Source: a bacterium
Lineage (GTDB): Bacteria > Margulisbacteria > Marinamargulisbacteria > JABIPA01
Length of the DNA stretch: 35,831 bases
Direction: 5' to 3'
Assembly: GCA_018699495.1 (NCBI GenBank)
Contig: JABIQV010000005.1
Location: 1 to 35,831, forward strand
Shown: positions 12,768 to 26,176 of the stretch, piece after piece
Numbering within the stretch: position 1 is the stretch's first letter
Layout of the letters: the number at the start of each line of letters is the position of its first letter
Made by a program: the position numbers and the translations under genes
Notes under the pieces: model-generated
The model's input: only the letters and a program-made list of their open reading frames with translations
What the model was told of the DNA's origin: nothing
The model's database searches: none

Positions 12768-14066
12768 TTAAAATTTTAAACTCATTTGAGACCTTATATC
12801 CAGTGATTTCCCAGTTCCTTTATATTCTGAATTTGAGTCCCCAAAATAATGAATTAGTGAAGTATTAAAAACGAGTTCGTTAATCAACGTATAGCTCCAT
12901 CCAATATTTATTAACCCGGATCCATCGGTAATGTTTTGAAGAACATTTGTAAATGTAGTACTGGAATGGTTGGGGAATTCCGAAAGTGTAATAAAGGCTG
13001 AATGATAGTGTTTAGCTAATTGATTTGGAACGTAAAGATTAGCTTTAATTATGGTGTCCATTAAGGACGCATCCGTCCAGTTTAGTGTTTCAAATCCATT
13101 TGTTTGATAATAGTGTTCGTATGTAAGTCGAACCCTATTTGCTCGTTCCCAATTGATTGTTTTGCTTAATTGCCCCATCCATTGATATTGCCTAGATTCA
13201 GGTTTATATTGAATAGTTGATTCGCTGATATAGGGTTCTTTTCCATTGAATATACTTAATTCGGTTAATAAATCGAATCCAAATATATAAGTCGACGCTT
13301 CTAATCCAAATCGACTTGGTTGATTATATTTTAGTAACGAGGATACGCCCACTTCAATATTTTTTAAAGCGACTTCATATTTTGAGACAAGACTGATGTC
13401 ATTTATATCATCTGATTCCTGTGAATTTAAAAAGAAGTAAAGATTACGTTTAGTTCCATTTGGAATATGAACTTTTAGCCCATACACACCTTCTAGCGCT
13501 TGGTTTAGATTCAAAAAGTCTTTTTTGTCGACATTCACAAAATCAATTGGATTCCAAAAATATCCTTGTCCCCATTTTAGATATTGTTTTCCAACTCTAA
13601 AATAGGATGTGTAATCTAAATTGAAATCGATGAAATATTCTTTAATATTAACAATAAGTGATTGAGCTGTTGGAATGTCTGGATCATTTATTTGACCTAA
13701 ATAGATATCAATATATCCTTTAATTCCTTTTTGGAAGCGAAGGTCTAAGAAAAAATCAGCGTCCGAATATAACTGAAGTTGGTTATTTGATACGGTACGT
13801 TCATATAGATTAGAATTTTTATTTATTTCGTAGAGACCGTACATATTAATTATTCCAGTAAAATTCACTGTATTAGTTTTATCTATTAATGATGTTTTTG
13901 AAGGTTTAATTACGTCTATGGTTGTATCTATAGAGTCATTTTCAAAAAGAGATCCTTTGAAATCAAAAAATGGTTCGTTTACTATATTTTCGTAAGAAAA
14001 TATTGGCGAAAGGGTTAGAGTGGCTACAAGAAGAGATAGTGTAAAAAATTTTTTTAATGATTTCAT
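12768..14066 (-). CDS. Predicted outer-membrane beta-barrel protein (DUF1302-like/porin-like)
   Basis: Signal peptide, alternating hydrophobic strands, FRVGKQYLKWGQGYFWNPIDFVN, C-terminal aromatic (SLKF). Operonic with the LolA-like gene. Confidence 0.7.
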   Translation of the reverse strand: MKSLKKFFTLSLLVATLTLSPIFSYENIVNEPFFDFKGSLFENDSIDTTIDVIKPSKTSLIDKTNTVNFTGIINMYGLYEINKNSNLYERTVSNNQLQLYSDADFFLDLRFQKGIKGYIDIYLGQINDPDIPTAQSLIVNIKEYFIDFNLDYTSYFRVGKQYLKWGQGYFWNPIDFVNVDKKDFLNLNQALEGVYGLKVHIPNGTKRNLYFFLNSQESDDINDISLVSKYEVALKNIEVGVSSLLKYNQPSRFGLEASTYIFGFDLLTELSIFNGKEPYISESTIQYKPESRQYQWMGQLSKTINWERANRVRLTYEHYYQTNGFETLNWTDASLMDTIIKANLYVPNQLAKHYHSAFITLSEFPNHSSTTFTNVLQNITDGSGLINIGWSYTLINELVFNTSLIHYFGDSNSEYKGTGKSLDIRSQMSLKF

Positions 14067-14073
14067 TGTTGTC

Positions 14074-14889
14074 TTAGTTAGATAAATTTTCTAGGTAAGC
14101 TTTTGTAAATATGTGGTCGTCGATAGGACGAAACGTTATGTCTGTAATTTCCCAAACTGTTTTGTTTCCTTTTTCAAAATTATCCATCACCATTTGTTTT
14201 ATGGCAATGAATTTATCATTAATTTTCGAATATTTAAGGAAATATTGAGTAGAAATAAGAGAATTTGAATATGACTTGTTTTGAATTTTTAGAGGGAGTA
14301 AATTGTCTTGTCTGACCCATATTGTTAAGTTTGGGTAAGCAACATTCGGGAGGTCGGAGACAACATCAATTTTGTATGCTGGAATATTGCCTAAATTTAT
14401 TATTTGGATAATATCATTATCATTGGCATCTTTTTTTCCTTTGTATTGCAATTCGTATTTTGGCGTTTCAAAATCGCTTGTATTGGCATCTGAACCGGCA
14501 ATGCTTTCATCTCTACTTATGTGTTGAAATGTTCGAGTATTTCTTCTGTACATCCAAAAATGCTCATCAGATTTTAGGTATCCATTTCCTTTTTCTGATT
14601 CTGGAGCAGTCATTACGATTAAAAATTTGTCTGTGGAATTTTTTGCAAAATAAATCGATTCCATTTGTTTAATTCCTTGCTCTATATCTTGTTGAAGAAT
14701 TGCAACTTTTGCTGTGACATCTTTTTCTATCGTTTGTTGAGTATCTATTTGTTTTAGGATTTCGGTTATAGAAGGTTTTTGTTTAATAGAAGAGGCTGAC
14801 AGTGAAGAGGTTATTAATAACCCCATTAAAAATATAGTTAACGCAGTTGTTCGATTGTTTTGTATTGAGCGGGTTGTTTTATAATTCAT
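14074..14889 (-). CDS. LolA-like outer-membrane lipoprotein-sorting protein family
   Basis: Signal sequence; KGNGYLKSDEHFWMYRRNTRTFQHISRDESIAGSDANTSDF; LPLKIQNKSYSNSLISTQYFLKYSKI. Confidence 0.8.
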   Translation of the reverse strand: MNYKTTRSIQNNRTTALTIFLMGLLITSSLSASSIKQKPSITEILKQIDTQQTIEKDVTAKVAILQQDIEQGIKQMESIYFAKNSTDKFLIVMTAPESEKGNGYLKSDEHFWMYRRNTRTFQHISRDESIAGSDANTSDFETPKYELQYKGKKDANDNDIIQIINLGNIPAYKIDVVSDLPNVAYPNLTIWVRQDNLLPLKIQNKSYSNSLISTQYFLKYSKINDKFIAIKQMVMDNFEKGNKTVWEITDITFRPIDDHIFTKAYLENLSN

Positions 14890-14903
14890 GAAATTGTCCT
14901 TTC

Positions 14904-16604
14904 TTAACGTCTTAGTGCTTCTGATGGGCTTAGTTTTGCCGCATTTCTACAAGGGAAATAAACTGTAATGAGTGTGAAGCCTAGAACTAGCAATAAATTT
15001 TTAATAATATGGGATAGTGTCGGTAAAAAATAAATACTGTTATCTACAAGTATCATATTTAAGGCATTGTCTGTAGTGAATTTTAATAATGAAAGACCTT
15101 TCATAACACCGAAAGAAATGACGATACCAATTAGTGAACTTACGGTTGCCAGGATTAACATTTCTAAAAGAAAAATCCATTGTAGGTGTATTTTTTTAAG
15201 ACCTATTGCTCGTAAGGTTCCAATTTCTCTATATCGTTCTTGTATGGTCATTCTTAATGAGTTTAGGACTCCTATCATAATAATAAAGAAAAGAATGATT
15301 GATACAGAAAGCACGACTAAATTAAACATTTGTTCGAATTGAATGACATCTTTCGCTGTTTCATACATTGACGATACGTCCAAAGTTGGCTGAGCTCGTT
15401 TATTTTTCATGAGTGACTTTAATTTTTTATTGAACGATATTGTGTTTTCCGTTCGATTTGTTAGTGTCCATTCTGTATCTATTAGTTTTAGAATATTTGT
15501 ATTTAAATTATTGGCAGTGAAATATTTTGTTAGGTTAATTCTGTTCTCAGGATAGTTCGTTTGGAATGTTTTAAAGAAAAGTCTGCTTGGCACAAATATG
15601 AGGTTTTTAGGGATATTAGAATATGCGCTTTTGACTGCATTTTTTAAAATTAAATCGGTGTTTGTTTTTGACTCTATTTTTTTGAACGTTATATGTGAAG
15701 ACGTCGTTTGCAATGAATTTGACATGATAGGGACGTTTAGTAATTGGTTGTGTTTTTGAGTTATGGTTACATCTTTGCGATTGATTCCTAAGAACTCTTG
15801 TAACTTGTTTTGTGTAGGAATTATACCGATGGGTACGACTATTACATTTTTATTTCCTAATTTTGCTTGAACTCCAAATTTTCCGGGAGACAACTGTTTA
15901 TGAATGTTATCTGCGGTTTCTTTTGCCTTTTTTGGGTTTTTTAGAAGTAATTTGAAGGCTCCAGATTCTTGGTTTTTATAGCCTAATAGTGTTTTTAATG
16001 TCGATGTTTTTGAAAAGATTGCATAATCCATAAACATATTTTTATTTTTTGTTATGATAGAGAGAATAAATGTTCCTGTATTTGTTTGCCCATTTACGTT
16101 TGTTGTTCGTATATTAACCGAATCACCGATAGATATATTCAGGGTTTCTGCTTTTTTCTCGGAAAGCATAATCGGGTTTTTTATAGATTCAAAGAGGTCA
16201 TAACTTCCCTTTAATGGTTTATATAGTTGTTTAAAATCAGGATGTAAATTTGTATTTGTTATCCAGGCATAATCACCTTTTCCATTTCCAACGACTCTTA
16301 CAAGGCTTCCTATGTCTTCTAATATCGATTGAATGTTTGGGTCGCTTTCTAGAATTATGGATTTGATTCTGTCTTTGTCTCTAAATATGGGAGAAATGAT
16401 TCGGCCATTTTCAATTCCTTGGACTTTTACATGGCCGGTCATGTATATCACCATTTTGTTTAAAATATTATCGGAGATGCCATTTGAGAATGCATTCGCT
16501 AACATCATAATTGCTATACCAAAACTTATAGACCCACCGATCATTAGGTTTCTTCTTTTTTGGCGTAAAAAATTTCTAAAGCTAATTTTCAAAATAGTAA
16601 ACAT
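14904..16604 (-). CDS. FtsX/MacB-type ABC transporter permease
   Basis: ILKISFRNFLRQKRRNLMIGG N-terminus; C-terminal MTIQERYREIGTLRAIGLKK; PCRNAAKLSPSEALRR. Confidence 0.9.
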   Translation of the reverse strand: MFTILKISFRNFLRQKRRNLMIGGSISFGIAIMMLANAFSNGISDNILNKMVIYMTGHVKVQGIENGRIISPIFRDKDRIKSIILESDPNIQSILEDIGSLVRVVGNGKGDYAWITNTNLHPDFKQLYKPLKGSYDLFESIKNPIMLSEKKAETLNISIGDSVNIRTTNVNGQTNTGTFILSIITKNKNMFMDYAIFSKTSTLKTLLGYKNQESGAFKLLLKNPKKAKETADNIHKQLSPGKFGVQAKLGNKNVIVVPIGIIPTQNKLQEFLGINRKDVTITQKHNQLLNVPIMSNSLQTTSSHITFKKIESKTNTDLILKNAVKSAYSNIPKNLIFVPSRLFFKTFQTNYPENRINLTKYFTANNLNTNILKLIDTEWTLTNRTENTISFNKKLKSLMKNKRAQPTLDVSSMYETAKDVIQFEQMFNLVVLSVSIILFFIIMIGVLNSLRMTIQERYREIGTLRAIGLKKIHLQWIFLLEMLILATVSSLIGIVISFGVMKGLSLLKFTTDNALNMILVDNSIYFLPTLSHIIKNLLLVLGFTLITVYFPCRNAAKLSPSEALRR

Positions 16605-16605
16605 A

Positions 16606-18126
16606 TTAGCTCCTTAATACTGAATCGAGAGGCGATATTTTTCTTGCCAAATAAATTGGATATATAGATGAAAGGCATACGATTAGGCCTAATTGAAGTA
16701 CGCAAAGACTAACGCTTATTAAATCTAGACTGGGGGAGAATGTGTCGCCACCATATAGAATTTGTAGCATTTCATGGGTTGTCGATAAATTTAGAAGTCT
16801 ACATCCAATGATTGTGATGGAACCTATAAGAATTCCTAATCCACCGAAAACAAAGGAAAGGAGTCCCGTTTCTGCTAAAAACATCGTTTGTATGAATCTT
16901 TTTTTTGTGCCGATTGCTCGCATCATTCCAATTTCAGGGATTCGTTCCATTGTTGCCATACTTAACGTGTTCATTATTATGATAATGGCGACGATGAAGA
17001 TGAAAAGTACAAATAAAAAAAGTGCGCCTTTCATAAGCATCGCAATTTGACCGAACATTCCGATTGCTTCATTCCATGAAATGGCTTGTAATGGGATTTT
17101 TTTCTCTTTAAGTAACGTGTTTATTTTAGTAATTGTTTTATGTAAATTTAAGTCTTTTTTTAGTTTTACAAAGATAATATTATACGTTCCTAATTCTTCT
17201 GTCAGTGGTGAAGGGGCGATGTTTTTTATTTTTGTTAAATCGTTTTTAATTTCTGTAGTAGATTCATTAATTGTTTCAAATGAATCGTTAAATAATGTGT
17301 CTATAGATTCTAAATCAGAAGTCATTAAGTTTTTATTTTTTTTGCTTATATAAACGGTATTATTGGATGATTCAAAATAGCCCATACATTCTCTAAATGA
17401 ACTCATATCTACAATACAATAAAAGCCCAGGATACTATTTAATTCTTTAAATTTTACGATTCCTATGACGTCCGTTAAGATATCTAGGCTCGCATTTTTA
17501 CTGCTGAGCCCCATATATACAATCGAGTTTTTAATTTGTAAGGAGGTTCCATTTTTTTGTACTTTTTCGGGGGCAGTTGTTATGTCAAAAGGCGTATTTA
17601 TGGGAACGGTCCATGAATCTGTAAAGTCAAAATACCAGTCTCTCATTCGTGTTGAGACAAGAACCCCCCGTTGATCTTTCTTAAGTAAGGACCCTTTTTC
17701 AATGATTAAATTATTATTAAAAAATTTCGAATATGATTCAATGTCGACGCCTAACAAATATTGGTCTAATGGATTACCGTTTTCGTTAAGGACCCAAACG
17801 TAGCCTGCTCCAGCAGGTAAAATTTTGTCTATTGAAGAGATGGTTAGGATTTTGGGTTTTAATTCGGAATAGTTAGTAATTGGTTTTAATGTATGTCCGG
17901 TCATACTCGCTAGAACTGTTTTTTCTATTTGTTTATCTGAAACGAGAACAAGATCTCCTGAAAAGTTGTTGACTATGTTTTCTTGCAGGCCTGTGTTCAG
18001 TCCATTTATGACGCCATTTCCTATTGTCATGATGAAGGTGCCTAAACATAATATTAATCCAATAACCAAGGATTTTCCTTTATGCCTAAATAGGTTTCTC
18101 CATGCGATTTTTAGTTCAATTGGCAT
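16606..18126 (-). CDS. FtsX/MacB-type ABC transporter permease
   Basis: MPIELKIAWRNLFRHKGKSLVIG; MATMERIPEIGMMRAIGTKK; ARKISPLDSVLRS. ATG at 18126 preferred over the track start (18165), leaving an 11-bp overlap with the ATPase. Confidence 0.9.
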   Translation of the reverse strand: MPIELKIAWRNLFRHKGKSLVIGLILCLGTFIMTIGNGVINGLNTGLQENIVNNFSGDLVLVSDKQIEKTVLASMTGHTLKPITNYSELKPKILTISSIDKILPAGAGYVWVLNENGNPLDQYLLGVDIESYSKFFNNNLIIEKGSLLKKDQRGVLVSTRMRDWYFDFTDSWTVPINTPFDITTAPEKVQKNGTSLQIKNSIVYMGLSSKNASLDILTDVIGIVKFKELNSILGFYCIVDMSSFRECMGYFESSNNTVYISKKNKNLMTSDLESIDTLFNDSFETINESTTEIKNDLTKIKNIAPSPLTEELGTYNIIFVKLKKDLNLHKTITKINTLLKEKKIPLQAISWNEAIGMFGQIAMLMKGALFLFVLFIFIVAIIIIMNTLSMATMERIPEIGMMRAIGTKKRFIQTMFLAETGLLSFVFGGLGILIGSITIIGCRLLNLSTTHEMLQILYGGDTFSPSLDLISVSLCVLQLGLIVCLSSIYPIYLARKISPLDSVLRS

Positions 18127-18793
18127 CAATTTGGCCGTCTCGTATCGTGATGGACGAATCGGCATATTTAAGGATTTCTGGATCGTGTGTAGAGAATAAG
18201 AACGTTGTTTTTCTAGTTTTATTTAAATTTTTCATCAGTGTTAGAATGACAGATCCTGTTTCTGAGTCTAAATTTGCGGTTGGCTCGTCTGCAAGAACAA
18301 TTTCTGGGTTAGTTACTAAGGCTCGGGCTATTGCTACTCTTTGACGTTGACCTCCAGAAAGTTCAGGAGGACGATGATTTTTTTGGTCTGTTATTTGGAC
18401 TGCTTCCATCATATCCAATGCTTTCATTCTAATTTCTTTTTTGGAGTACTTATTCATTAAGAGCAGTGGAAATTCTATGTTTTCTAAAACGTTTAAAACA
18501 GGAATTAAGTGAAAGGATTGAAATATGAATCCAATGTTAAAAAGGCGAAGTTCGGTTAGTTGATTGTCTGTTAAGGAATCTATTTGATTACCGTGTATTT
18601 GAACCGATCCTGAATTTGATTTGTCGATACACCCTATTATATTTAGTAGTGTCGTTTTCCCACTTCCTGAAGGACCAACAATTGCAGAAAAGGACCCTTT
18701 TTCGATGGTTAAGTTAATGTTTTTTAGAGCATGAACAACAGTTGTACCTAAATAATAGTCTTTGTTTATATTTTTAAGTTCAACGATAGCCAT
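18116..18793 (-). CDS. LolD/MacB-type ABC transporter ATP-binding protein
   Basis: Walker A GPSGSGKTT, signature LSGGQRQRVAIARAL, Walker B IVLADEPTANLDSETG. AGGAG SD before the ATG at 18793. Confidence 0.95.
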   Translation of the reverse strand: MAIVELKNINKDYYLGTTVVHALKNINLTIEKGSFSAIVGPSGSGKTTLLNIIGCIDKSNSGSVQIHGNQIDSLTDNQLTELRLFNIGFIFQSFHLIPVLNVLENIEFPLLLMNKYSKKEIRMKALDMMEAVQITDQKNHRPPELSGGQRQRVAIARALVTNPEIVLADEPTANLDSETGSVILTLMKNLNKTRKTTFLFSTHDPEILKYADSSITIRDGQIDAN

Positions 18794-18950
18794 TGTTGGT
18801 CTCCTCATTTAGCGATAACCCAATAATAATAGAGTAGAGGTGTGGATTTACGCGGTTACTTTTTTTAGTTTATGTAACACACCTATTTTATAGCTACTTT
18901 GGTAAATATTAAAGCTCGAGAATTTAGAATCAATAAACGGTTTGTATAAG

Positions 18951-19979
18951 TTAAACTAATATTTCATCTTTAATTGGGTGGGATGTTTGAACTTTTTCTA
19001 ATGAAAGGTAAGGAATTATTTTACTTTGGATGCTTTCTCTTTCAATTTTTTCGATTATCATTGATTTTTTTCGTATTCCGTATGTGAACAGTATTTGAGG
19101 TGTGTTTGTTAATGAAAATTTTGTTTGTATGTCGGTGGATGAGTCTTTGTTAAGTAATGGAGCACCATAAAGGCAGGTAGCTATGTTTTGATCCGACAAA
19201 TGAAGTAATATACTTTGTAGGTCTTGCCCCGTTTGAACTAAGCTTTTTATATCTGATTTAGAAGATAATATGATAATACCGTCAGCCGTTAAAATGTCCG
19301 GGTATTTTGTTTTTGCAATTAGTTTTCCTATTGATTGATTCGACGAAAGGATAGGAATCAAATTTGATGTAAAAACGGGGATATTTAGTGCTGAAATTGG
19401 AACTCCTTTTTTGGCTGATGAAAGAATAGATGGGAACATTTTATTTAATGTTTTTTTGAACAGTTTTTCATTAGAACTTGTATTCATTCCTTTTTTTGCG
19501 TGTTTTTCAATAAGTTTAAATGATGATTTTTCTTTTAAAATTTTAATTTCTGAGTCAATTTTTCTTCCAAAAATTATTTTTTCAGTACTTAATATGGGTT
19601 TCTCAATGACTTGTGGTAAATATTTATTTCTATAATTTTGTCTTTTTTTCATAAGTTGAATCAATTTGTTATAGCTGTGTTCATTTGTGACGTGTTGTGA
19701 ATCCAGATTTACCGTTATTTTTGCAATGTTTGGGTACTGATTTTGATACTCTATCGTTATGAATCGTTTGCAGCTTGTTAGCAGCAGTATGACGTTTTGT
19801 ATAAAGCACCCGATGCTTATTAATTGAAAAGAATTGCTTGGGTCAAGATCATTTAAATCTAATTTAGTGTCTGCACTTATTAAAATTGTATTGTCGTGAA
19901 AGGCTAATTTCCATGGTTGCGTATTGTAATAGGATGGCGATAAATTTGCGTATTCAAGCAGTTCGAATAAATTAAACAT
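18951..19979 (-). CDS. Acg/Rv2032-like nitroreductase-family protein
   Basis: LLEYANLSPSYYNTQPWKLAFHDNTILISAD resembles the N-terminus of Acg-type nitroreductases. Next to another nitroreductase-domain gene. Confidence 0.7.
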   Translation of the reverse strand: MFNLFELLEYANLSPSYYNTQPWKLAFHDNTILISADTKLDLNDLDPSNSFQLISIGCFIQNVILLLTSCKRFITIEYQNQYPNIAKITVNLDSQHVTNEHSYNKLIQLMKKRQNYRNKYLPQVIEKPILSTEKIIFGRKIDSEIKILKEKSSFKLIEKHAKKGMNTSSNEKLFKKTLNKMFPSILSSAKKGVPISALNIPVFTSNLIPILSSNQSIGKLIAKTKYPDILTADGIIILSSKSDIKSLVQTGQDLQSILLHLSDQNIATCLYGAPLLNKDSSTDIQTKFSLTNTPQILFTYGIRKKSMIIEKIERESIQSKIIPYLSLEKVQTSHPIKDEILV

Positions 19980-20003
19980 TGGTACTCCTTTTAGTCAATT
20001 TTT

Positions 20004-20678
20004 TTAACATATGATACATGGCAAGGTTGTGTCTTTAATTTTAGATGGGATATCTTTATCGTAATCAATATAATGTATTTCCATGGGAAATTTTTTGGAT
20101 ACGTATTTACTGTGACAAAAATAGTAAGGAAAGTGTTTTAAAAAATGTGTTTTTATTCCTGATGAATGAAAAAAGGCCTTTAAAACGGATCGTTTGCTAC
20201 AAATCAATACAATTTTTTTTGAATCTGTTTTCTTAAATTTTAAAAATTGACTATTTAAGGTCGATTTAACTAAGTTAAGTCCTATTTGTCGAGAATTAAT
20301 AAAGCTTTCGTTTACCACAAGTTTTGTTAACTCTCTGATTTCGAAATTAGAGGTGAGGTCGATTTTTTGGTTGATTTCTTCAAAACTTATATTTCCGTAT
20401 TCTAAGGCATAGCTATTTTCTAGGTAAGCGCCAATAGACCCAATAACTTGTCCATTTGATTTTGCCATCAAAAGGTTGTCTGGGAACCGTTCGATGGGAT
20501 CCTTTGAAATCGGAAGTTGGTTTATTAACGTCACTCCATATTTTTTATAATAAATGGAAGCCATTAACTCTTGGCAGCGTTTTCTTTCTGAGTCATTTTT
20601 AACAATTTCTAGCGTATGGCTAGACGCAAACTTGGTATTTGTATCGTTTAATTTTTTAATTAATGTTTTGCTAATCAT
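20004..20678 (-). CDS. GNAT-fold N-acyl amino acid synthase-like protein (FeeM family-like)
   Basis: ELMASIYYKKYGVTLINQL, FEIRELTKLVVNESFINSRQIGLNLVKSTLNSQFLKF. ATG at 20678 overlaps the upstream TGA (ATGA). Confidence 0.6.
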   Translation of the reverse strand: MISKTLIKKLNDTNTKFASSHTLEIVKNDSERKRCQELMASIYYKKYGVTLINQLPISKDPIERFPDNLLMAKSNGQVIGSIGAYLENSYALEYGNISFEEINQKIDLTSNFEIRELTKLVVNESFINSRQIGLNLVKSTLNSQFLKFKKTDSKKIVLICSKRSVLKAFFHSSGIKTHFLKHFPYYFCHSKYVSKKFPMEIHYIDYDKDIPSKIKDTTLPCIIC

Positions 20679-22939
20679 AAAAACTGACAAACTTTCTCAA
20701 CAGGTCGTTTTAGGGATGCAATGGGTTCTGTCTCTGAATAAAATAGTCGAAACAATAGAATGAGTCCGTTATCGGGCGAATGTGGAATAATAGATGTGAA
20801 TTTTTTTTGTAGTAAAATTAACTCTTTTTTAAGCCAGTTAGGTAGTGTTTCCGGTTTCAGGTAAAGGCGAGTTAATAAATAGCAGATACTTGTCATCGGC
20901 TGTAAACTAAGACCTTCTTTACTTGCCGTTAACCATAGTTTTTCAAGAGCTTGCCCACCATGAAAGAAACTTAACGGGTTATTTTTGTCAGTTAGTATAC
21001 ATCCGATGGCCGGGCTTTTTTCGATTTGTTTTAAGGAAAAGTTTTCAATTCCTTTTCCACCGTTAACTTTTTTTAGAAGTTCGACGACGGACCAGTTTTT
21101 CGATAATTTTAACCCGGCCAAATCTAAGTTTGATAAATAGAGAGTCTCGATATCTATGCCATCTCTCGATTTACCAACTTCTTCTTCATTCCATCTAATT
21201 TCGTTGTACATTTCTTCGTGACATTGTTTGTGAAAGAATCTGCATTTTTCTGATTTAGCAAAAATAGTTGAAAGGTCAGAAATATCTGACGATGAGGTTT
21301 TAAATATTATATTTGTACCAGGTAGATGGTCACAGGCGGATGCAAGCTTTGAAAATGTAGCTGTTTGTATTTTCTGATTTAACGCTTTTTTACGATTTGT
21401 TTTTCGTTTAAATATTTCTTCAAATAAATCTGGCATTTCAGGCGTTAAGTCTAATTTTTTCGTTTGCTTGAAAATGGCGACACATGGAAATGCATCTGGA
21501 TAAATTGTTTCAAAGGTCATTTCATTTTTTCTTGCAGCTATTAGAAAGTTTTCGGAGGCGGCACCAAGTGCGAGATGAGAGGCTAAGTAATTAACGTCTA
21601 AAAATATACCCGCTCTAGATTTATCAATAAAAAGAAAAACTAAGTTATCGTGAATGATCCATTTCCATGGCTGAATATTCCCTCCAGAGGGGGCTTGGTT
21701 TGCACAATTAATACAGTCTGATATTTTTGATTTTATAATTGGAACGGTTGTTGATATTTTTTGCTCAATTATTATATTTTTCGCATATTCGAGTTCAGGT
21801 TTATCAGTTAGGTTATCTTCAGATGGATTAGACTTGATTGGTGGGGTAAATGATTTTTCTGTTAAACGGGGCTGGTTTTTGTCTAATTCTTTATCTATAT
21901 CAAAATAATAACGCCCAGATGGAGTAGGTGTAGATAATAGAAGTCTTCTTGATACGTGGGTAGTAATTCCCGCTCCATTAGAAACCGAAGATGCAAGTTG
22001 AGGCCAAGAATTTATGCTTTGTTCAATTTCTAGCATACTTGATTTTAATCGGTCAGAAGCGTCATTGATTCCAAGAATATCTAAAACTAAGGGGATTTTT
22101 TCTTCATTGCTTAGGTTTTTTAAATTGGTTTTAGTTTCTAAGTTAGTAAGCCCGTGAAATAAGGGTCGGTGGGGCTCTAAGTCGAATCGTTCGATATCTA
22201 AAAGTTCTCTGTCTGTTGTATGCATAATTACTGGAATATTTAAGGCTTTACATTTTTTTCTAATTTCTATTTTTGTTTCAAAACAGTCACATTCTTCTAT
22301 GAGTAGGTCTAGTTGAGATGTTTTTGTAAGAAATTTGGAGTAGTTTTGGCTATCTACCCCTTTGTCGAAAATGGTTAGTTTTAAAAATGGGTCAATTTCA
22401 AGTATTTCTCGGGCCGTTAACACAGCTTTATTCATACCGATATTTTTTACGTTTGTTCTAATTCTATTTAAATTTGAGAGTTCAATTGAATCGAAGTCAG
22501 CGAGTCTGATTTCACCGCAAATTCGTTCTTGAGCGATGGTTAATGCGATTGCATGCCCTACGGAAAGTCCTATAATCCCTATTTTTTTAGCTTTTAACTC
22601 GAGTTGTTCTTCTTCTGAAATTTTGTACATATTTCTCGCGGTTCTCAATTTAACAAATTTATTTTCGTCTAGAAGATGTACGAGGTGATTGTTCCACGGA
22701 TAAAACACCCAAACGCCAATATTATTTTTATTGGAGATGTCAAAATAGTTTTTTATGGAGTTTTGAATAATTTTATCGGATGTTTCGTTTGGAATGAGAA
22801 GTTTTGTGTATTCGACTAATTGACTATCAATTTCATCAAATATTTGAATGTTAGGGGCGGTTTTTAAAAGAGCGAGTTTATTAGCGTTTGTTGGATTAAG
22901 AGGGTCCAATATGTCTACTTGAAATGTGTGTCTTTCCAT
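20675..22939 (-). CDS. ThiF/E1-like adenylyltransferase fused to a nitroreductase domain (Rv1355c/MoeY-like)
   Basis: E1-like half: KKIGIIGLSVGHAIALTIAQERICGEIRLADFDSIELSNLNRIRTNVKNIGMNKAVLTAREILEIDPF. Nitroreductase half: CANQAPSGGNIQPWKWIIHDNLVFLFID. Confidence 0.85.
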   Translation of the reverse strand: MERHTFQVDILDPLNPTNANKLALLKTAPNIQIFDEIDSQLVEYTKLLIPNETSDKIIQNSIKNYFDISNKNNIGVWVFYPWNNHLVHLLDENKFVKLRTARNMYKISEEEQLELKAKKIGIIGLSVGHAIALTIAQERICGEIRLADFDSIELSNLNRIRTNVKNIGMNKAVLTAREILEIDPFLKLTIFDKGVDSQNYSKFLTKTSQLDLLIEECDCFETKIEIRKKCKALNIPVIMHTTDRELLDIERFDLEPHRPLFHGLTNLETKTNLKNLSNEEKIPLVLDILGINDASDRLKSSMLEIEQSINSWPQLASSVSNGAGITTHVSRRLLLSTPTPSGRYYFDIDKELDKNQPRLTEKSFTPPIKSNPSEDNLTDKPELEYAKNIIIEQKISTTVPIIKSKISDCINCANQAPSGGNIQPWKWIIHDNLVFLFIDKSRAGIFLDVNYLASHLALGAASENFLIAARKNEMTFETIYPDAFPCVAIFKQTKKLDLTPEMPDLFEEIFKRKTNRKKALNQKIQTATFSKLASACDHLPGTNIIFKTSSSDISDLSTIFAKSEKCRFFHKQCHEEMYNEIRWNEEEVGKSRDGIDIETLYLSNLDLAGLKLSKNWSVVELLKKVNGGKGIENFSLKQIEKSPAIGCILTDKNNPLSFFHGGQALEKLWLTASKEGLSLQPMTSICYLLTRLYLKPETLPNWLKKELILLQKKFTSIIPHSPDNGLILLFRLFYSETEPIASLKRPVEKVCQFL

Positions 22940-23220: not shown

Positions 23221-24618
23221 ATGAATACAATTACAAATCTTTTGATGCTGTATGGTGGTATTTTATTAATAAATACTATTATTTCAATTTTCCTTTGGAT
23301 AAATGATAAATCTAAAACAAGTTTTTATAAAATTATGTTTTATATTTGGTTTTCAAGCGTTGTCGCGTTTGTTTTTCAAGGAATATTACAGCAAAATGAT
23401 CTTGCGATTGTTTCGGGGTTTTCATTTACCCTATTTACTGTTTTTTCGTTAGTTTTTTTATTTCAGGATATTTATTCCTTTCGAGTGCCTATCAAGAGGT
23501 TAGTCGGCTTTTTCGTATTGTCTTATGGAACAACGCTTTTCCTTTTGATAAATGGCGTTGAATTTGTTTATGCTGTTCTTCCCTTATCATTTAGTATAGC
23601 TTTACCGTTACTTGTTACGGCTTACCATGGTTTTTTTAAACAGTGGAATGACCTTACTTTTCCCGGAAAAGGGTATATATGGGTAGCTGTAATGTTCTCT
23701 ATTCATATTTTAGATTTTCCGTTTCTTCGAAAGGTTGAATCGGCAGCTACTCTTGGTTTTTTAATTGCTATTCTCATTGTGTTTGGTTTTTCTATTTTTG
23801 CGCCTGCAATGGTAATAGAAATTCTTGCAAAACGACAAACTCGGATTGTCGCGGAAATTGATGTTGCGAAGAAAATTCAGACCGAAATTTTGCCTAAAGA
23901 TCCGCATGTTCCAGGAATGGATCTTACTTGTTTTATGAGACCTGCGGATGAAGTGGGCGGCGATTATTACGATATATATTCTGTAGATGACAAGACGTGG
24001 TTGTTTCTAGGCGATGTTACCGGGCATGGACTTGGGTCTGGACTTGTTATGTTTATGGCTCAAAGTATTATTACGTCTATTTTAGAAACTAACCCGGCGA
24101 TAACACCTATGGAATTGAATCTTTTGTTCAATCAAATATTGTTTAACAATTTGGAGCGACTGAATGAAAAACGCCCCATGGCATTAATATCGTTGTGTTT
24201 CGGAAAGGAGAATTCAGTATCTCTTAGTGGTAATCATGATCTCATTTTTGTATATCGCTATAAAACTAAATTGATAGAAAAATTAGCTCTTTATCAGTTC
24301 CCGATGGGGTTGGGGTTTACAGATATATTTGATAAATCTGACATTAAAAATGAATTATTAAGTTTGGAAGATGGCGATATTTTATTTTTGGGTACGGATG
24401 GTATTACAGAAGCGGCGAAGCATGGGGATGTTAATTTGGGAATGTTTGGTGAAGATCTTTTAGAAAAATGGTTAAAAGAAAACTGCGAAAAAACTGTTGA
24501 TGAAATGAAAAAATCATTGTTAGAAACATTGGATGATTATACCTCTGGAAAATATTTTGATGATATTACGTTTGTAATTGCACGTTTAGATTCTAAAAAA
24601 TTGGGTAAAATTATTTAA
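23221..24618 (+). CDS. Membrane-anchored SpoIIE-type PP2C serine phosphatase
   Basis: Multi-TM N-terminus; PADEVGGDYYDIYSVDDKTWLFLGDVTGHGLGSGLVMFM, LFLGTDGITEA, FDDITFVIARL catalytic motifs intact. Confidence 0.92.
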   Translation: MNTITNLLMLYGGILLINTIISIFLWINDKSKTSFYKIMFYIWFSSVVAFVFQGILQQNDLAIVSGFSFTLFTVFSLVFLFQDIYSFRVPIKRLVGFFVLSYGTTLFLLINGVEFVYAVLPLSFSIALPLLVTAYHGFFKQWNDLTFPGKGYIWVAVMFSIHILDFPFLRKVESAATLGFLIAILIVFGFSIFAPAMVIEILAKRQTRIVAEIDVAKKIQTEILPKDPHVPGMDLTCFMRPADEVGGDYYDIYSVDDKTWLFLGDVTGHGLGSGLVMFMAQSIITSILETNPAITPMELNLLFNQILFNNLERLNEKRPMALISLCFGKENSVSLSGNHDLIFVYRYKTKLIEKLALYQFPMGLGFTDIFDKSDIKNELLSLEDGDILFLGTDGITEAAKHGDVNLGMFGEDLLEKWLKENCEKTVDEMKKSLLETLDDYTSGKYFDDITFVIARLDSKKLGKII

Positions 24619-24620
24619 AG

Positions 24621-25229
24621 ATGGATACCAGTGTATTTAAAATTAATCAGTTAAGCTCTGAACATTTATTTTCGGATTCTCAACAATCTTGGTTTTTTGG
24701 CAATTATATTACATTAGAAGAAGATGAAATAATATTTTCTGAATGTCATTTAAAATTTTTGCCACTTCATTTGATATCCAAATGGTCTAGATGTGGGTTG
24801 ACTGCCGAATATCTATCAAAATATATAGCATTGAATTCAGAAAAAGGTAGTGAGGTCGAAAATGTTGCGGCTACAGTAATTAATGAATTGATAGAAAATG
24901 CAGTCAAGTTTTCATTTGATAAGTCGGAATCAATATTAGTCTCCATGTATCAAACGGGGACTGCTGTGTTAGTCAGAATAGAGAATGTAGCTGACTACGA
25001 CTCAGTCAAAAAATTTGTAAAATTTTTGGAGGAAATTGACTTAACGGATATAGAAGAAACCATAGTTAAGCGAATCGAAAAGAGTGCAACGTCGGATGGA
25101 GATGTATCTGGGTTGGGGATTCTCTCTATTATTAATGATAGTGATGTTACGTTTGGAATAAAAATTTGTTCTGATTCTGTTGAAGATAAAACGTTTTCAG
25201 TGGATATAAAAATACTATTTAAAATTTAG
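24621..25229 (+). CDS. HATPase-like anti-sigma/kinase regulator (slr1658/SiaB-like)
   Basis: SKWSRCGLTAEYLSKYIALN, VINELIENAVKFSFD (N-box-like), SGLGILSIINDSDVTFGIKI. Homologous to the 25610-26176 product. Confidence 0.75.
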   Translation: MDTSVFKINQLSSEHLFSDSQQSWFFGNYITLEEDEIIFSECHLKFLPLHLISKWSRCGLTAEYLSKYIALNSEKGSEVENVAATVINELIENAVKFSFDKSESILVSMYQTGTAVLVRIENVADYDSVKKFVKFLEEIDLTDIEETIVKRIEKSATSDGDVSGLGILSIINDSDVTFGIKICSDSVEDKTFSVDIKILFKI

Positions 25230-25247
25230 GGAAGATGGAGAGTTTTG

Positions 25248-25586
25248 ATGTTTAATAAAGATTATCAGATAGTGGATGCAAGTAATGGTGTTATTTGTTT
25301 AACCGGTGTTTTAAGGTTGCCCTCACCAGGTGCTTATGATGCTCCTTTTGCACCGATATATAAAAAAATTCAAAGCGAGGAGTTTTCCACTTTTGTTTTA
25401 GATGTAACAGATCTCGTTTTTTTAAATAGCGCAGGATTAACAGCTTTGGCACAGTTGATAATCTATTGTAGAGAACACACTATTCCTTTAACTTTGAAAG
25501 GAAAGAAAGGTGTTCCTTGGCATGAAAAAAGCATATCAAGGTCATTGGCTCGTTTATGGAAAGAAATGATTGTGGAGCTTGTTTAA
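25248..25586 (+). CDS. STAS-domain regulator (slr1659-like, anti-sigma antagonist fold)
   Basis: FVLDVTDLVFLNSAGLTALAQLIIYC with conserved Ser; KGKKGVPWHEKSISRSLARLW. Confidence 0.8.
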   Translation: MFNKDYQIVDASNGVICLTGVLRLPSPGAYDAPFAPIYKKIQSEEFSTFVLDVTDLVFLNSAGLTALAQLIIYCREHTIPLTLKGKKGVPWHEKSISRSLARLWKEMIVELV

Positions 25587-25609
25587 TAGACAGGTACTGG
25601 ATGGTTTAA

Positions 25610-26176
25610 ATGGAAGAAGTAGTATACGGATTATATAATGAATTAGATAAAGTTGGGGTTGGAAATTCTGAGATAACAATGGATTTTGTGATTCCTCTTG
25701 AGCTAATGTCTGAATGGGAACGGTGTGGATTAATATCCGATTACTTAGCTCGATATGAAGCTTTTACATTTGATGATCAGGAATTGGCAACACAAGTATT
25801 GTCGACGGTCATAAACGAACTTTTAGAAAATGCGGTTAAATTTTCTACGGATAAAAATAAAATAGTTAATATCACGATTAAGCATTTTGGAAGTTTTCTG
25901 TCAGTTGAAGCTGTAAATAATACGGATGAGAAACATGCTTTAAATTTGGAATCGTATATTACTAAGCTAAAAGAATCATCTCCGGAGGATTTTTTTTTCG
26001 CACAGATAGAGAAAAATGCCTTGGTTCAGAGTCACAATTTATCTGGATTGGGGTTGCTAACGTTGGTTAATGATTACGAAGCAAAGTTAGGAATAAAAAT
26101 ACAAAAAAAGATTAAAACGGGATACGATATTTTTACGATGGTTCTTTTTTTTACTAATAATTTTTCAAATTCTTAA
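25610..26176 (+). CDS. HATPase-like anti-sigma/kinase regulator, second paralogue (slr1658/SiaB-like)
   Basis: SEWERCGLISDYLARYEAFT, VINELLENAVKFSTDKN, SGLGLLTLVNDYEAKLGIKI. Confidence 0.78.
   Translation: MEEVVYGLYNELDKVGVGNSEITMDFVIPLELMSEWERCGLISDYLARYEAFTFDDQELATQVLSTVINELLENAVKFSTDKNKIVNITIKHFGSFLSVEAVNNTDEKHALNLESYITKLKESSPEDFFFAQIEKNALVQSHNLSGLGLLTLVNDYEAKLGIKIQKKIKTGYDIFTMVLFFTNNFSNS

Follow-up and report, generated by a model that had tools for sequence, protein, structure and literature searches.

What do a fused adenylation and flavin enzyme, a putative acyltransferase and an oxidoreductase make together in this bacterium, and how does a divergently encoded membrane sensor beside them fit in? 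The question is raised by positions 18951–22939 of the window, which here means the whole 35,831-nt stretch that was analysed (contig JABIQV010000005.1 of GCA_018699495.1, forward strand). The initial annotation read three minus-strand genes as an uncharacterised pathway and overlooked the divergent neighbours at 23221–26176, which are part of the picture. We propose that the product of the locus is an N-acyl oxazolone which its sensor probably detects, so that synthase and receptor of an acyl-oxazolone signal are encoded together, and give this a probability of roughly 0.55. Its enzymatic chemistry is well supported by analogy with characterised homologues, while the signalling role is one that we infer from synteny. 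The genes concerned are the following:

20675–22939, minus strand: trzS-family ThiF–flavin oxidase fusion, 754 aa (NF005901, 1.7e-212; conserved ATP-site and flavin-dependent oxidoreductase (FDO) residues)
20004–20678, minus strand: candidate trzA-like GNAT-fold N-acyl amino acid synthase, 224 aa (predicted structure, Foldseek, VIA, homologue in an operon of genome G023)
18951–19979, minus strand: stand-alone Acg-like FDO, 342 aa (NF047509, 3.6e-32; weak match to the Acg structure 2ymv; ribosome-binding site)
23221–24618, plus strand: seven-transmembrane (7TM) sensor with a PP2C (SpoIIE/SiaA-type) phosphatase domain, candidate receptor (helices, SiaA likeness, synteny)
24621–25229, plus strand: predicted HATPase protein, RsbW/SiaB-like anti-sigma-type kinase (weak HATPase Pfam matches)
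25245–25586, plus strand: predicted STAS-domain anti-anti-sigma-type protein (PF01740, 5.8e-5; homologue in the G023 operon)
25610–26176, plus strand: second predicted HATPase protein (PF19788 (DUF6272), 3.2e-4, under its cut-off; HATPase, 0.0065)

The open reading frames and the sequence confirm the positions of the three minus-strand genes and the ATGA overlap between the first two (minus strand ...TTTTTATGATTAGC...). The 224 aa are counted from an ATG, and the list of open reading frames also holds an alternative TTG start upstream at 20690. The 342-aa gene begins 24 bp past the 224-aa gene, is preceded by a good ribosome-binding site (AAAAGGAGTACCAATG) and probably belongs to the same operon. 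All three genes are kept in this order in the same-genus genome G012 (83, 87, and 78% identity, respectively). Promoter and terminator scans gave results no better than shuffles.

The 754-aa protein matches the Pfam families ThiF (PF00899, 3e-19) and nitroreductase (PF00881, 6.4e-6), and its match to NF005901, the Rv1355c family, spans residues 4–751 of 754 with 707.6 bits against a curated cut-off of 476. Its sequence places it firmly in the Rv1355c/TrzS family, as the initial annotation had recognised from the fused ThiF/E1-like and nitroreductase domains; the family has already been characterised functionally, and the pathway can no longer be called uncharacterised. The ATP site and the flavin domain both have their conserved residues intact: across 83 aligned TrzS sequences, the ATP-site residues G124, G128, D148, D150, R159, K171, and D218 are conserved in 82–83 of the 83 relatives. 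The catalytic Asp, D218, is invariant (83/83) and aligns with the conserved Asp of Escherichia coli ThiF (1zfn); its match to D217 of Mycobacterium smegmatis TrzS was made through this ThiF alignment and not through the smegmatis sequence itself. In the FDO domain, N421, Q423, W425, R512, T514, R516, and E580 are conserved to the same extent (82–83/83), and P424 is likewise among the conserved flavin-site residues.

A 2025 study showed that TrzS and the N-acyltransferase TrzA (Rv1356c–Rv1355c in M. tuberculosis, also present in M. smegmatis and Rhodococcus) produce N-acyl tryptazolones, with ATP-dependent cyclisation preceding O2-dependent desaturation; the oxazolone ring does not survive acid or methanol (PMC12856293). 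OxzAB of Pseudoalteromonas rubra and TyzACB of M. tuberculosis follow the same three-step logic of N-acyltransferase, ThiF cyclase and flavin oxidase (PMC10404671), which is shared by the proposed N-acyl dehydrotyrosine pathways (PMC12479983). In the published network, the ThiF domains of Oxz and Tyz are grouped in a different subcluster from that of TrzS, and TyzB and TyzC are separate proteins. The window shares with TrzAS the full-length fusion and the adjoining N-acyltransferase gene, but its host is not an actinobacterium, its GNAT is not similar by sequence, and it adds the stand-alone Acg-like enzyme and the 7TM-PP2C partner-switch genes where the M. tuberculosis cluster has cyclic di-GMP (c-di-GMP) genes instead.

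Carried over from these homologues, the chemistry at the window locus would start with the GNAT enzyme N-acylating an amino acid, with the identities of both acyl group and amino acid being presumed. The ThiF domain of TrzS would then adenylate the carboxylate and close the oxazolone ring, and the flavin domain would desaturate the product with O2 as in mycobacterial TrzAS. With two heme-copper oxidase genes in the genome from which the window comes, O2 could plausibly serve this step. The initial annotation had anticipated acylation, adenylation and oxidation towards a lipid-like signal or cofactor, and in this it comes very close to what has been described for OxzAB, TyzACB, and TrzAS (PMC10404671, PMC12856293).

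The 224-aa protein (ACYLTRANSFERASE) matches no Pfam or NCBIfam family by sequence. Its predicted structure has a GNAT fold (predicted template modelling score 0.73), for which Foldseek ranked the N-acyl homoserine lactone (AHL) synthase LasI (1ro5) first and the N-acyl amino acid synthase FeeM (2g0b) second, whereas VIA-align placed FeeM first (Z 13.5, 166 residues, 3.3 Å). The resemblance to N-acyl amino acid and AHL synthases seen initially is thus found again at the level of the fold, at ∼11% identity to FeeM and the LuxI-type synthases, and the model makes membership of a FeeM/AHL-synthase-like GNAT subgroup likely. A homologue of the window GNAT sits inside the trzS operon of G023, and a GNAT-like gene lies near trzS in 66 of the 83 loci, almost always directly downstream, so that the conserved co-occurrence looked for by the initial annotation exists for these two genes. 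At the cyanobacterial (Moorena) locus L125 the neighbour is a clear FeeM (PF21926, 8.8e-17). Profile comparison of the window GNAT with the trz-linked GNATs of Bacteroidota gave a colinear but not significant alignment, and the Rhodococcus and Streptomyces neighbours of trzS share only 9–16% identity with TrzA, which leaves their homology undecided.

Four genes run divergently from trzS: the gene for the 7TM-PP2C protein is followed by two HATPase genes with a STAS gene between them. Seven N-terminal membrane helices are predicted for the 7TM-PP2C protein (predicted local distance difference test 84.7), and its PP2C domain is closest to that of SiaA (6k4e). With its HATPase and STAS partners it resembles the SiaAB(CD) and RsbU/RsbW/RsbV partner switches; unlike the sensor part of SiaA, that of the window protein is a 7TM domain for which Pfam has no model, and no known Pfam family matched it even at E = 1.

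Of the 74 genomes of the window's phylum, seven encode this type of 7TM domain, with one copy each. All four phylum genomes with a TrzS-type cyclase (called at E < 1e-50) have the 7TM-PP2C sensor within a few genes of it. By hand arithmetic, the chance of the co-occurrence alone, ignoring adjacency, is C(7,4)/C(74,4) or ∼3e-5, and ∼3e-4 when one genome per genus is counted. The operon in G023 consists of trzS, 7TM-PP2C, GNAT, HATPase and STAS genes, of which the trzS and sensor genes overlap. A variant cluster in G003 (L034 74–7031) has an alpha/beta hydrolase, a ThiF-only cyclase and a CoA-ligase-like gene on one strand and the 7TM-PP2C gene, a HATPase-like gene and a stand-alone FDO on the opposite strand; no GNAT was seen in this cluster. 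Homologues of the first HATPase (24621–25229) adjoin the sensor in both G023 and G003. Divergent from the G023 operon there is also a gene for a fusion of helix-turn-helix and Y1/IS200-type transposase domains (L033 8319–9263).

Outside this phylum, trzS is accompanied by another kind of membrane sensor. A TrzS profile scan of one genome per species yielded 80 loci, mostly from Bacteroidota, where the usual order is trzS, GNAT, a ∼700-aa histidine kinase, a response-regulator/kinase protein and a response regulator, with a further response regulator divergent and upstream of trzS. The histidine kinase carries 7TMR-DISM extracellular and 7TM domains. Among the 67 loci with three downstream genes, to which the count was limited, such a kinase lies 1–3 genes downstream of trzS on the same strand in 60, all from Bacteroidota, and the seven loci lacking it are all from outside Bacteroidota. 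At one of these exceptional loci, L080, the gene that immediately follows trzS encodes a HisKA_7TM kinase. PF07695 genes are scarce in six such genomes (2–6 each). The trz-linked receptors score 264–316 bits on their own profile and all others tested ≤116, a gap that is in part expected because the trz-linked members themselves served to build the profile. In a tree a single branch separates them from the others (support 52/86; 0/500 shuffles as low), and by these sequence comparisons they form a distinct subfamily.

The same synthase is accompanied by two sensor types that share no detectable homology, in one case within the operon, and for this reason the product is best read as a signal and the 7TM protein as its receptor. 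The adjacency of synthase and membrane sensor is conserved across lineages, as is used to recognise quorum-sensing pairs. CqsA/CqsS and LuxI/LuxR are such synthase–receptor pairs; like the window they have a small-molecule synthase gene beside a sensor gene, although their chemistry differs. In M. tuberculosis, c-di-GMP genes flank the trz cluster (PMC12856293), and a GGDEF gene lies near trzS at two Rhodococcus plasmid loci; both point the same way. At the window locus the oxazolone would leave the cell, by a presumed export step, or partition into the membrane, and would be bound by the 7TM domain of the divergently encoded protein. The 7TM-PP2C protein would then dephosphorylate the STAS protein and shift the HATPase/STAS partner switch, with target genes as the presumed output.

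The window's 7TM family is also found beside other enzymes. In G001 (L050 228–2735) a 7TM-PP2C gene of this family starts 19 bp after a gene for an FkbO/Hyg5-type chorismatase. Chorismatases of the XanB2 type make hydroxybenzoate diffusible factors, and the G001 genes may therefore be a separate signal–receptor pair. In G016 (L051 6736–15912) a BioF/CqsA-like synthase with a long N-terminal extension is directly followed by a HisKA_7TM-PP2C protein, and three further 7TM kinases are encoded nearby, one of which has the window's 7TM domain. In G004 the 7TM gene is located at a contig end. As the same domain is paired with a chorismatase and a CqsA-like enzyme, it could represent a family of swappable autoinducer receptors. 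We therefore suggest, tentatively and at somewhat less than even odds, that N-acyl oxazolones are widespread bacterial signals with dedicated synthase-adjacent 7TM receptors, namely 7TMR-DISM kinases in Bacteroidota and swappable 7TM-PP2C proteins in the window's class. No member of the window's 7TM family was found on plasmids or phages, nor in 198 Bacteroidota genomes, a search that had no positive control and shows little. PP2C/STAS linkage to trzS was absent from the other 78 trzS loci, which lie outside the window's class.

Several observations weigh against a synthase–receptor pair. Linked genes could equally arise if the sensor regulated the operon instead of responding to what it makes. 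Tryptazolones were found chiefly within cells (PMC12856293), and two Mycolicibacterium plasmid trzS loci have no adjoining sensor gene. Comparison of the window's 7TM domain with 7TMR-DISM gave no evidence of homology (no PF07695 match; hhalign probability 0.5%). By sequence the window GNAT resembles neither FeeM nor TrzA, and in VIA-align FeeM leads generic GNATs by less than 1 Z, so that the FeeM/AHL-synthase subgroup is likely and not proven. Product, ligand and target gene at the window locus are things that we infer, and a literature search found no publication linking oxazolones to these 7TM sensors.

If the sensor did control the operon, the oxazolone might be a membrane lipid, a defensive compound or a stress metabolite, and the 7TM protein would detect an outside condition and switch the operon on without binding the product. 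Stress links have indeed been reported for these compounds (PMC12856293), and in the window the sensor and synthase genes are divergent, as regulators and their targets often are. We nevertheless regard this as rather unlikely, given that the 7TM-PP2C gene of G023 stands inside the operon between trzS and GNAT, that in two lineages trzS is accompanied by 7TM sensors of unrelated types, and that the window's 7TM family also adjoins other small-molecule synthases. A different doubt concerns the product, which might be an open-chain N-acyl dehydroamino acid, of the kind proposed for the stieleriacines and for the thalassotalic and kyonggic acids. The oxazolone would then be a hydrolysing intermediate, and the Acg-like oxidase would carry out a second desaturation or act on the acyl chain. 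Producers of dehydrotyrosines conserve N-acyl amino acid synthase, ThiF and nitroreductase genes (PMC12479983), and the extra Acg-like FDO is conserved within the genus; yet TrzS fusion enzymes yield the oxazolone itself in vitro (PMC12856293), and we consider an open-chain end product unlikely.

A peptide-modifying pathway of the azole type, with McbB/C/D-like enzymes and an unseen precursor peptide, is highly improbable. The pairing of an E1-like with a nitroreductase-like enzyme had suggested this analogy, which is superficial, and unnecessary because ThiF domains of the TrzS family turn the N-acyl amino acid itself into an oxazolone. No other family matches nearly as well as TrzS, whose substrates are N-acyl amino acids (PMC12856293), and an acyltransferase-like gene adjoins trzS in most of the 83 loci. 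No YcaO/McbD partner or precursor peptide was found among the neighbours examined, for which no dedicated search was made.

The reading as a synthase and receptor of an acyl-oxazolone involves trzS, the GNAT gene and the sensor genes, and assigns no step to the third minus-strand gene. The 342-aa protein matches TM1586_NiRdase (1e-6) and the Acg family NF047509, the latter with 112 bits and below the cut-off of 199. It is Acg-like, as first annotated, without being filed as Acg, and it differs from the FDO half of TrzS. Its gene is kept within the genus, and beyond it only a distant one was seen, at the related ThiF locus of G003. The stand-alone enzyme is not a conserved or general component of trzAS.

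Further downstream on the same strand lies a set of genes that is found in the same order in G012:

12768–18808, minus strand: ABC ATPase, two FtsX permeases, LolA-like lipoprotein and a 432-aa protein (Pfam; G012 synteny)

These genes may encode an exporter, which might export a lipid. The 432-aa protein has no Pfam match. The set is not beside trzS in G023 or G003, and an ABC exporter as a conserved partner of trzS was rejected, the linkage being confined to the genus.

Two further variants of TrzS-like genes were observed. On a Nitratidesulfovibrio plasmid (L055 7101–10025), in an exosortase/PEP-CTERM region, a ∼970-aa protein has an N-terminal extension before its ThiF and nitroreductase domains and may be an acyltransferase–ThiF–FDO fusion. 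Four Nannocystis genomes (L087, L096, L103, and L113) carry two TrzS-like genes, and the second one, which is divergent, lies ∼2 kb upstream of the other.

The enzymes of the window are thus of a known type; what is new is the linkage of trzS to dedicated 7TM sensors, together with a small undescribed family of 7TM-PP2C proteins. The physiological role of N-acyl oxazolones is a major unresolved question according to the authors who reported them from M. tuberculosis (PMC12856293). With the synthase tied to a membrane sensor in two unrelated ways, specific candidate receptors can be pointed to in the culturable Pedobacter and Algoriphagus, and these make a signalling role of the oxazolones directly testable.

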